From a virus, in the IMG/VR virus record IMGVR_UViG_3300008448_000515, positions 1-26,860 of that record: a stretch of 26,860 nt of DNA; one strand, given 5' to 3'. A program made the translations under genes and the position numbers. How positions within the stretch are numbered: the first letter of the stretch is position 1; every line of letters begins with the position of its first letter. Below the pieces are notes generated by a model. The model searched no databases and was not told the origin of the DNA. It saw only the letters and a program-made list of their open reading frames with translations. This document shows positions 1,893-24,404 of this stretch, one piece after another.

Positions 1893-1924
1893 TTTGGTAT
1901 TCTAAAATAAATTTCTTATATTTG
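1893..1924 (+). promoter_or_regulatory. Bacteroidota-type promoter, leaderless, for the uvdE-to-sigma operon
   Basis: TTTG (1893-1896), a 20-nt spacer and TATATTTG (1917-1924) match the Bacteroidota housekeeping promoter form (TTTG near -33, TAnnTTTG near -7). Only 4 nt separate the -7 box from ATG 1929. The family-typical N-terminus of UvdE begins at that ATG, so the start codon is firm. Transcription would therefore begin at or beside the start codon, giving a leaderless mRNA. The same spacing recurs exactly before the primase gene. Confidence 0.75.
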
Positions 1925-1928
1925 TACT

Positions 1929-2819
1929 ATGAATATAGGATATGCATGTATTAATATGACGATGGGTAAGAAAGTTACCACAAATCGTTCAATGGTGAAG
2001 AAAACATTCAATGCCAGAGGCTTGGATTATGTTTCGGAGTTGGCATTAGCAAATGCTAAAGATTTAATCAAAATATTAGAATGGAATCGATTAAATGGAA
2101 TTAATTTCTTCCGTTTATCATCTGCTTTAATCCCTTGGGGTGATAATATTGATATTACCCAATTAAAAGATTATGAGGAGTTTAAATTCGAATTAAAGAA
2201 AGCAGGTGATTACGCTAAGTTTTGGAATATGCGTATCAATTCACATCCAGGTCCTTTCAATGTACTTCCATCTCCAAATGAATCAGTTATTCAAAAAACT
2301 TTTGCTGATTTAGAATTACATGGTAAGATATTTGACCTTATGGGATTATCTAAAACTCCATACAACAATATTAATATCCATTGTAATGGTGTCTACGGCG
2401 ATAAACAATCTGCGATGGATAGATTGATTACAAACTTCAAAAGACTCTCACCAAGCGTACGCAAACGATTGACATTGGAGAATGATGATAAGGCTTCTAT
2501 GTATTCCGTAAAAGACCTTATGTATATTCACGAAAACACAGGTATTCCAATTGTATTTGATTATCATCACCATCAATTTTGTACAGGTGATTTATCAGAA
2601 GAAGCTGCACTTAAATTAGCAGCAACTACTTGGCCAAAGGGTATTACGCAAGAAGTTCACTATTCAGAATCAAAAGCATTGCACGAAAATAATCCAAAAG
2701 AAAAACCACAAGCTCATTCATTGTATATTAATTCTTTACCAGATACATACGGATTGGATGTAGATATTATGGTTGAAGCAAAAGCAAAAGAATTGGCAAT
2801 ATTGCCTTTTATAAAATAA
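1929..2819 (+). CDS. uvsE: UV-damage DNA endonuclease (UvdE/UvsE family)
   Basis: UvdE enzymes are TIM-barrel metalloenzymes that nick DNA 5' of UV photoproducts and start an alternative excision repair pathway. The 296 residues match the family's full length, and the usual metal-site residues are present in order: H106 (in HPGPFN), H151 (in NIHCNG), E184 (in LTLEND), D211 and H214 (in DYHHHQF), H244, H263 and E283. The N-terminal GYACIN segment (4-9) is also typical and fixes ATG 1929 as the start. It is the first gene of an operon from a host-type promoter, so it is probably made early, when incoming phage DNA would need repair. T4 uses the unrelated DenV glycosylase for this job. A UV repair gene suits a phage of sunlit water. 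Confidence 0.93.
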   Translation: MNIGYACINMTMGKKVTTNRSMVKKTFNARGLDYVSELALANAKDLIKILEWNRLNGINFFRLSSALIPWGDNIDITQLKDYEEFKFELKKAGDYAKFWNMRINSHPGPFNVLPSPNESVIQKTFADLELHGKIFDLMGLSKTPYNNINIHCNGVYGDKQSAMDRLITNFKRLSPSVRKRLTLENDDKASMYSVKDLMYIHENTGIPIVFDYHHHQFCTGDLSEEAALKLAATTWPKGITQEVHYSESKALHENNPKEKPQAHSLYINSLPDTYGLDVDIMVEAKAKELAILPFIK

Positions 2820-4242: not shown

Positions 4243-4932
4243 ATGCCTAGAAAACCCAGAAACAAACAATACTTTACAAAGGATACAGAAGATGCTATCA
4301 TAGAATATAATTCAACTGATGACCAGTACATCAAAGATAGAGTGTATAGAGATAGAATTAAACCTGCCTTTGATAAACTAGCAGAAATAGTATATAACAA
4401 ATGGAAATTCACCTACTTTGATGATGACCCACAAGATGTAATGAGTGAAGTTGTTACATTTATGATTGAGAAGATTCATATGTACAAAGCAGGTAAAGGA
4501 AAAGCATTTTCTTACTTTACTATTGTTGCAAGAAATTATTTGATTCTCACAAACAACGCAAATTACAAACGATATAAAGATACGGATATCATGTCTGCTA
4601 TGCCAGAATCATTTGATACCGAAAACAATTGGAAAGAAGAAAATCAGAATGATGAATATCGTACATTCAATACGAGAATGTTAGCATATTGGGATGAACA
4701 TTTAGAAAACTATTTCCAAAAGAAAAGAGATATTCAGATAGCAGATGCTGTATTAGAATTATTCCGCAGAGCGGAGTACATAGAATCTTTTAATAAAAAA
4801 TCCCTTTACTTACTAATCAGAGAAATGACAGGGCATCCAACTCATTATATTACAAAAGTGGTTAATAAAATGAGAGAAAAACAAATGGAATTGTATAACC
4901 AATTTATGGATGAAGGGGATATAAGAATATAA
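4243..4932 (+). CDS. Late-transcription RNA polymerase sigma factor (T4 gp55-like)
   Basis: This 229-residue protein resembles the gp55-type late sigma factors of T4-like phages, which replace the host sigma subunit and guide host RNA polymerase to short late promoters. It has a helical N-terminal half and a core segment GKGKAFSYFTIVARNYLI (84-101) that matches sigma-70 region 2, used for core-polymerase and -10 contact. A long helical C-terminus follows, with no clear region 4, as expected for gp55. It is the last gene of the host-promoter operon. The first ATATTTAT motif of the virion cluster begins 16 nt after its stop codon. I infer that this protein recognises that motif. Assignment rests on remembered family patterns, not on a search. 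Confidence 0.8.
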   Translation: MPRKPRNKQYFTKDTEDAIIEYNSTDDQYIKDRVYRDRIKPAFDKLAEIVYNKWKFTYFDDDPQDVMSEVVTFMIEKIHMYKAGKGKAFSYFTIVARNYLILTNNANYKRYKDTDIMSAMPESFDTENNWKEENQNDEYRTFNTRMLAYWDEHLENYFQKKRDIQIADAVLELFRRAEYIESFNKKSLYLLIREMTGHPTHYITKVVNKMREKQMELYNQFMDEGDIRI

Positions 4933-21776: not shown

Positions 21777-21784
21777 ATATTTAT
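21777..21784 (+). promoter_or_regulatory. Candidate late-promoter motif ATATTTAT, site 6
   Basis: In context GAATATTTATATA, it is placed between a strong terminator and ATG 21792, 7 nt before the start. Because transcription from upstream should stop at 21767, a promoter is required in this 24-nt stretch, which makes this the best single argument that the motif is a promoter. Confidence 0.65.
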
Positions 21785-23426: not shown

Positions 23427-23458
23427 TTTGGAAATATCAAATATTGTTCATATATTTG
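23427..23458 (+). promoter_or_regulatory. Bacteroidota-type promoter, leaderless, for primase
   Basis: TTTG (23427-23430), a 20-nt spacer and TATATTTG (23451-23458) repeat exactly the boxes, spacer length and 4-nt distance to the start codon (GTG 23463) seen before uvsE. Transcription should begin at or beside the GTG. It would drive primase and the SbcD-SbcC gene. Confidence 0.75.
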
Positions 23459-23462
23459 TATT

Positions 23463-24404
23463 GTGTTGAATAGTACTGACAAATCCAAAGTTATTACAAC
23501 GCTTTCTAATGCGTTGGGTAGTTACTCCAATTTAAAAGGTAATGAACTTGCATTTTATTGTCCTTTTTGTAATCATCACAAACAAAAACTACAAGTAAAT
23601 ACGGAAACCCAAAAGTGGCATTGTTGGACTTGTAATAGTGGTGGTAAAAAATTAACATCTTTATTAAAAAGATTAGATGTTGATAGAAAAACAATCTCAA
23701 TCATTAGAGAAATATACGGAGATTCGAATTATAATCCCCAAAATGAGGATGCGGATACAAAAGTATATATTTCCTTACCAAAAGAATTTAAATCGCTTAA
23801 TGAAGTTCCTAAAGGGTTTAATCCTGAATATAAACATGCTATGTTCTATCTAACTCAAAGAGGAATTGGTATGAAGGAAATTATTAAATATAATATTGGA
23901 TATTGTACCGAAGGTTTGTATGCAAAGAGAGTTATCATACCATCGTATTTATCAGATGGGCAATTAAACTACTTTGTTTCTCGTTCTTATTACCCAGAAG
24001 AGAAAATGAAATACAAAAACCCACCAATCAGTAAAAATGTAATTTGTTTAGAATCACAAATTAATTGGAATGAACCAATTATATTATGTGAAGGTGTTTT
24101 TGATGCAATTACAATCAGAAGAAATGCGATTCCACTATTAGGTAAGTTTCCATCAAGAACATTGGTTGAGAAAATCTTTATGAGTGGTGTTAGTGATATT
24201 ATTATTTCATTGGATAACGATGCAATTAATGAAGCACTAAAAGCAGCAGAATATTTTAGAAAGCAAGGAATAAATGTAAAGATGATGCATATGAAAGATA
24301 AAGATGCATCTGAAATTGGATATGATAAGTTTTATGAAGAACTAAAGAAAACTAAAGAGTTTTCATCCGAACAATTATTATTAAATAAGATTAATAGTTT
24401 ATGA
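23463..24404 (+). CDS. DNA primase (zinc finger plus Toprim, T4 gp61-like)
   Basis: The 313-residue protein has the layout of a phage primase that makes RNA primers for lagging-strand synthesis, normally together with the replicative helicase. An N-terminal zinc site uses C33, C36, C54 and C57 (CPFC and CWTC). A Toprim catalytic domain (about 200-285) shows E210 in ILCEGVFDAI and the D-x-D pair D251/D253 in SLDNDA, with DKDASE (279-284) as the third acidic cluster. There is no helicase domain. The start is GTG 23463, 4 nt after a host-type -7 box. TTG 23466 is an alternative. It overlaps the next gene by 4 nt (ATGA). Early expression from a host-type promoter agrees with a replication role. 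Confidence 0.88.
   Translation: MLNSTDKSKVITTLSNALGSYSNLKGNELAFYCPFCNHHKQKLQVNTETQKWHCWTCNSGGKKLTSLLKRLDVDRKTISIIREIYGDSNYNPQNEDADTKVYISLPKEFKSLNEVPKGFNPEYKHAMFYLTQRGIGMKEIIKYNIGYCTEGLYAKRVIIPSYLSDGQLNYFVSRSYYPEEKMKYKNPPISKNVICLESQINWNEPIILCEGVFDAITIRRNAIPLLGKFPSRTLVEKIFMSGVSDIIISLDNDAINEALKAAEYFRKQGINVKMMHMKDKDASEIGYDKFYEELKKTKEFSSEQLLLNKINSL

Follow-up and report, generated by a model that had tools for sequence, protein, structure and literature searches.

The gene uvsE encodes a UvdE-type UV-damage endonuclease in a viral window of 26,860 nt (the whole stretch of DNA analysed, from an IMG/VR record), where it is a member of a run of codirectional genes; the preceding ORF 797 lies on the same strand and ends at 1888, 40 nt before the uvsE ATG. 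The promoter and gene consist of the following features.

1893-1896, + strand: -33 box TTTG, part of TTTGG in the extended motif and kept in relatives
1897-1916, + strand: spacer of 20 nt between the uvsE promoter boxes
1917-1924, + strand: -7 box TATATTTG, which occupies -12 to -5 if +1 is 1929
1925-1928, + strand: TACT, the 4 nt from the -7 box to the uvsE ATG
1929-2819, + strand: uvsE, 296 aa, with the mRNA predicted to begin at the A of the ATG

The letters are exactly those claimed in an earlier sequence-only reading (TTTG, 20 nt, TATATTTG, 4 nt, ATG), and its description of the element as a host-type promoter holds: the boxes are of the Bacteroidota sigma-A type, with a -7 box of the form TAHHTTTG and a -33 TTTG approximately 17-23 nt upstream, and they fit published Flavobacterium positions. 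The TAnnTTTG box of F. psychrophilum lies at -12 to -5 (PMC9723704), and the transcript start of F. johnsoniae follows the -7 box after 4 or 5 nt (PMC6847099); because published host boxes lie 4-5 nt before the start, +1 is predicted to be the A of the uvsE ATG, as the same reading had proposed, and, for the primase described below, the G of its GTG. The first T of the uvsE box is 12 nt before the ATG, which agrees with the spacing (a -10-type box ~12 nt upstream of the start codon) by which Zheng et al. 2011 called leaderless genes (PMC3160421). The UvdE domain (Pfam PF03851; E=1.3e-62, 211.9 bits against a gathering cut-off of 24) begins with model position 1 at residue 3 of the product, and the N-terminus is common to leadered relatives; ATG 1929 is considered to be the true gene start, fixed by the UvdE N-terminus as had been claimed. 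A later start is ruled out, as the domain is already underway at residue 3.

When both strands of the window are searched for TTTG-N19..21-TANNTTTG, two matches are found against 1.2 expected by chance, and thus the box pair by itself is weak evidence; in both, a start codon follows after exactly 4 nt, the uvsE ATG in one and the GTG of the primase (23463) in the other. RNA structure downstream of these two predicted leaderless starts is nothing out of the ordinary, and an Rfam search returned no match.

Two layouts in relatives of uvsE and the primase

Relatives of uvsE were fetched from IMG/VR and 79 sequences were compared by d, the number of nucleotides from the end of the box to the start codon. 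The promoter is kept in 79/79; related phages without the boxes, named beforehand as an observation that would speak against the promoter, were looked for and did not appear. The distance falls into two classes, with d=3-5 (leaderless) in 37 sequences, d=17-25 (leadered) in 42 and intermediate values in none. The gene tree of uvsE requires at least 11 switches of layout, 7 of them forced by well-supported branches, a count that recombination at the promoter could inflate. In L048 the usual start codon has been lost and the sole candidate is an in-frame ATG at d=4; a leaderless start is therefore obligatory there, if the promoter serves uvsE. A perfect TATATTTG box is present in approximately 9/37 leaderless uvsE compared to 39/42 leadered ones (loci L002-L080), the imperfect boxes of the leaderless class including TATATTAC, TATATTAG and TATATTTA; this scarcity counts against the leaderless explanation.

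The proximity of ORF 797, in a codirectional run and ending 40 nt upstream, means that read-through could also supply a leadered uvsE message. A stronger form of this proposal, in which the promoter does start RNA at the ATG while most UvsE is made from upstream read-through and the leaderless RNA mainly serves downstream genes (NadM-like, DUF2061 and peptide deformylase), is considered quite unlikely. A promoter serving only downstream genes needs no fixed distance to the uvsE ATG; the confinement of d to 3-5 in one class and 17-25 in the other, with nothing between, therefore argues against it.

The second promoter of this layout in the window precedes a primase gene.

23427-23458, + strand: second promoter, TTTGG-N19-TATATTTG, ending 4 nt before the GTG at 23463
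23463-24404, + strand: DnaG-like DNA primase, 313 aa, GTG start, predicted to be leaderless

Among 80 primase loci fetched from IMG/VR (L082-L161), a TATATTTG-like box lies 12 nt before the start in every one, across 36 different promoter sequences, and the start codon is GTG in 80/80; within the same genes GTG is rare as a valine codon (66/1021). A more distant relative, G006, has an ATG start and a leader. Leaderless mRNAs of E. coli initiate poorly at GUG (PMC9031893), which, set beside the invariant primase GTG, counts against leaderless initiation at these loci.

A position weight matrix (PWM) built from strict promoter matches was run on eight large related phages (1.54 Mb) and finds 249 sites compared to 1 in shuffled sequence; the matrix was trained on strict matches from the same genomes, so the strict-match count is partly built in, while the start-codon distances are not. 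From box to first start, with GTG and TTG allowed at 4 nt only, 41 promoters fall at 1-7 nt (22 at exactly 4), 1 at 8-13 nt and about 109 at 14-32 nt. Counting ATG alone gives 17 at 4 nt and 34 at 3-7 nt, with 4 at 8-13 nt against 10 expected by background; the 17 at 4 nt exceed background with P=2.6e-12, a value that assumes independent promoters and overstates the certainty, the genomes being related. Leaderless placement accounts for 41/183 promoters with a start within 60 nt, about a fifth; by protein family a leaderless member is found in 22/113, and 8 of these 22 families also have another layout. The leaderless families include a DnaB-like helicase, a weak DNA-polymerase-A match, a phosphoesterase and an asparagine synthase. 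It is therefore not a layout special to uvsE, as had been implied, since the primase and other families share it; that leaderless placement is general in these phages is well supported by their predicted promoters.

The possibility that the uvsE boxes are a chance match in AT-rich DNA draws on the ~1.2 pairs expected in the window, and a single match could indeed be chance; the placement and conservation of this promoter are not. Conservation in 79 uvsE and 80 primase sequences, the 249 sites against 1 after shuffling and the exact placement at the start codon leave this possibility negligible, and chance is ruled out by conservation and shuffles.

The phage spacers (L162-L241) are conserved as TTTGG-N6-[CG]AAA...TTCG, with AAA near -23 and TCG before the box. 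In the same loci an imperfect TTTG...CAAA inverted repeat spans the -33 box, and could be an operator or a stronger form of the promoter.

A test independent of uvsE and the primase is provided by sampled and deduplicated pattern scans of IMG/VR for TTTGG-N19-TATATTTG followed by an ATG. Among the matches listed, the ATG starts an ORF no shorter than 40 codons in 102/110 cases at d=4, 23/90 at d=10 and 64/89 at d=22, the 102 ORF-opening ATGs at d=4 representing 62 protein families. A pyrimidine at -1 (with A at +1) is found in 92% of d=4 families compared to 70% at 22 nt, again among the matches listed; this combination would make a good initiator, as expected of a transcript start. The extended spacer of the phage group is absent from about half of the d=4 cases among the matches listed, and thus the leaderless layout is wider than this group.

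Late-type motif and candidate sigma factor

Host-type matrix matches are absent from the window between 1893 and 23427, a region that holds the structural module (a baseplate wedge protein is among its products); structural and other genes here are preceded by a different motif, ATATTTATA. These and neighboring elements are listed below.

544-575, + strand: third PWM match, TTTGGTAATTTGAGTTATTTTTAGTATCTTTA, 55 nt before ORF 631
575-606: hairpin with T tail directly after the third PWM match, 13 pairs, -17.8 kcal/mol, z -5.9
619-626, + strand: late-type motif ATATTTAT; the ATG of ORF 631 follows after 4 nt
21777-21784, + strand: late-type motif ATATTTAT; the ATG of ORF 21792 follows after 7 nt
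upstream of 4964, 8084, 14614, 19875 and 22775: late-type motif ATATTTATA with no -33 box, preceding structural genes as well as others
4243-4932, + strand: candidate phage sigma factor, 229 aa, whose model resembles sigma region 2, including that of T4 gp55

At the left end of the window, the sigma-A-type promoter at 544-575 has its predicted transcript start inside the 575-606 hairpin, between hsp20 and ORF 631; G007 and G008 have promoter matches at the equivalent place. A sigma-54-like -24/-12 element (TGGTATA-N4-TTGAA) is located at 73-88, upstream of hsp20 (131), and its spacing also occurs upstream of hsp20 in G007, G008, G009 and G011. Chaperone genes of F. psychrophilum are driven by sigma-54 (PMC9723704), and the phage hsp20 may therefore use a host heat-shock-type promoter.

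In the relatives, ATATTTATA lies before 161/727 genes and its reverse complement before 6. The motif has a leaderless class of its own, with 18 cases at 4-7 nt, 2 at 8-11 nt and the remainder farther. The leaderless layout had been put forward as an early-gene device, a proposal which fits poorly both with this class of a motif found before structural genes and with the related uvsE, about half of which have a 17-25 nt leader behind the same promoter.

ORF 4243 possibly encodes a phage sigma factor, as the best structural matches to its model are sigma factors (Z ~8-10); the model has a pLDDT of 67, and high scores arise by chance among helical folds. The model aligns with T4 gp55 at Z 10.0. 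Searches of Pfam, PHROGs and PDB gave no sequence match naming a sigma factor; membership of a known sigma family by sequence is rejected, which leaves the structural resemblance. The late promoter consensus of T4 is TATAAATA. The phage shares with T4 late transcription (gp55 and a single-box promoter) a motif of one box upstream of structural genes and perhaps a protein resembling sigma region 2; it differs in that the coding-strand motif is ATATTTATA rather than TATAAATA, and in that sequence does not support the family membership of ORF 4243. Together, ORF 4243 and ATATTTATA would fit a T4-like division into early and late genes; under such a division leaderless starts would not be confined to early genes.

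This sigma-like gene also bears on whether the uvsE promoter is a middle promoter, read by host polymerase after phage modification or with a phage sigma factor or activator, a proposal which is compatible with leaderlessness and is considered unlikely. The phage motif conserves more than the host consensus does, namely TTTGG, the AAA near -23 and the TCG before the box, and F. johnsoniae has a weak -33 motif (PMC6847099); however, the host -33 TTTG is kept, as are the six positions that never vary in the host -7 box, and the ATATTTATA carried instead by structural genes is a better fit to a phage sigma factor.

Comparison with hosts and meaning of the two layouts

The explanation preferred here, given a probability of roughly 0.85, is that a sigma-A-type promoter placed at the ATG would produce a leaderless uvsE mRNA, as one of two layouts in the phage group. 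The Bacteroidota promoter TTTGG-N19-TAnnTTTG ends 4 nt before the start codon and would be recognized by unmodified host RNA polymerase, which would begin RNA at the A of the ATG; the ribosome would then have to recognize the uvsE mRNA by its 5'-terminal AUG alone and translate from a bare start codon. The group has two separate layouts, leaderless or with a leader of ~10-28 nt; uvsE, the primase and ~20 other gene families in the eight large relatives use leaderless placement, and lineages have switched between the two forms at the same gene.

Bacteroidota mRNAs are without Shine-Dalgarno sequences and are mostly leadered. Promoters of the Bacteroidota primary sigma factor resemble those of the phage in their TTTG and TAHHTTTG boxes and the 4-5 nt to the transcript start; the phage motif differs in its stricter TTTGG, fixed 20-nt spacer and conserved spacer ending in TTCG. 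Leaderless mRNAs make up 5.5% in F. psychrophilum (PMC9723704), 5' UTRs below 10 nt make up 3.7% in B. thetaiotaomicron (PMC7366714) and leaders of 10 nt or less at most 13% in F. johnsoniae (PMC6847099), whereas leaderless placement is found at 41/183 of the phage promoters with a start within 60 nt. This rarity in known hosts, such as the 5.5% of F. psychrophilum, also counts against the preferred explanation. The comparison rests on these published values instead of a direct pattern count (21 genomes from the family of a Flavobacteriaceae MAG), which gives 2.05 per Mb in hosts (control 1.36) against 12.3 in phages (control 1.3) and is biased by the weak host -33 motif. Known leaderless mRNAs, such as lambda cI and those of Mycobacterium and Deinococcus, likewise carry a -10-type box ~12 nt ahead of the start codon; the present cases differ in belonging to Bacteroidota phages and in including a strictly conserved GUG start. 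What appears to be new is that ordinary Bacteroidota promoters are placed at start codons unusually often, and in phages; in the open literature searched, which is a part of the whole, no report of leaderless genes in Bacteroidota phages was found.

A broader suggestion, advanced tentatively and more doubtful than the reading of uvsE itself, is that large Bacteroidota phages have two genome-wide modes of starting, leaderless or with a leader of at least ~10 nt and the range between avoided, and that the leaderless mode, including the fixed GUG of the primase, is a regulatory choice. If true, leaderless mRNAs could, for example, be translated by 70S ribosomes under conditions that restrict normal initiation.

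Bacteroidota ribosomes must find start codons without Shine-Dalgarno pairing, and a single gene with leaderless and leadered forms and many switches between them provides natural matched pairs for tests of start-codon recognition. It would be unusual for a leaderless GUG start to be conserved. Two promoter motifs are also gained for annotating Bacteroidota phages, few of which have been studied at the RNA level.
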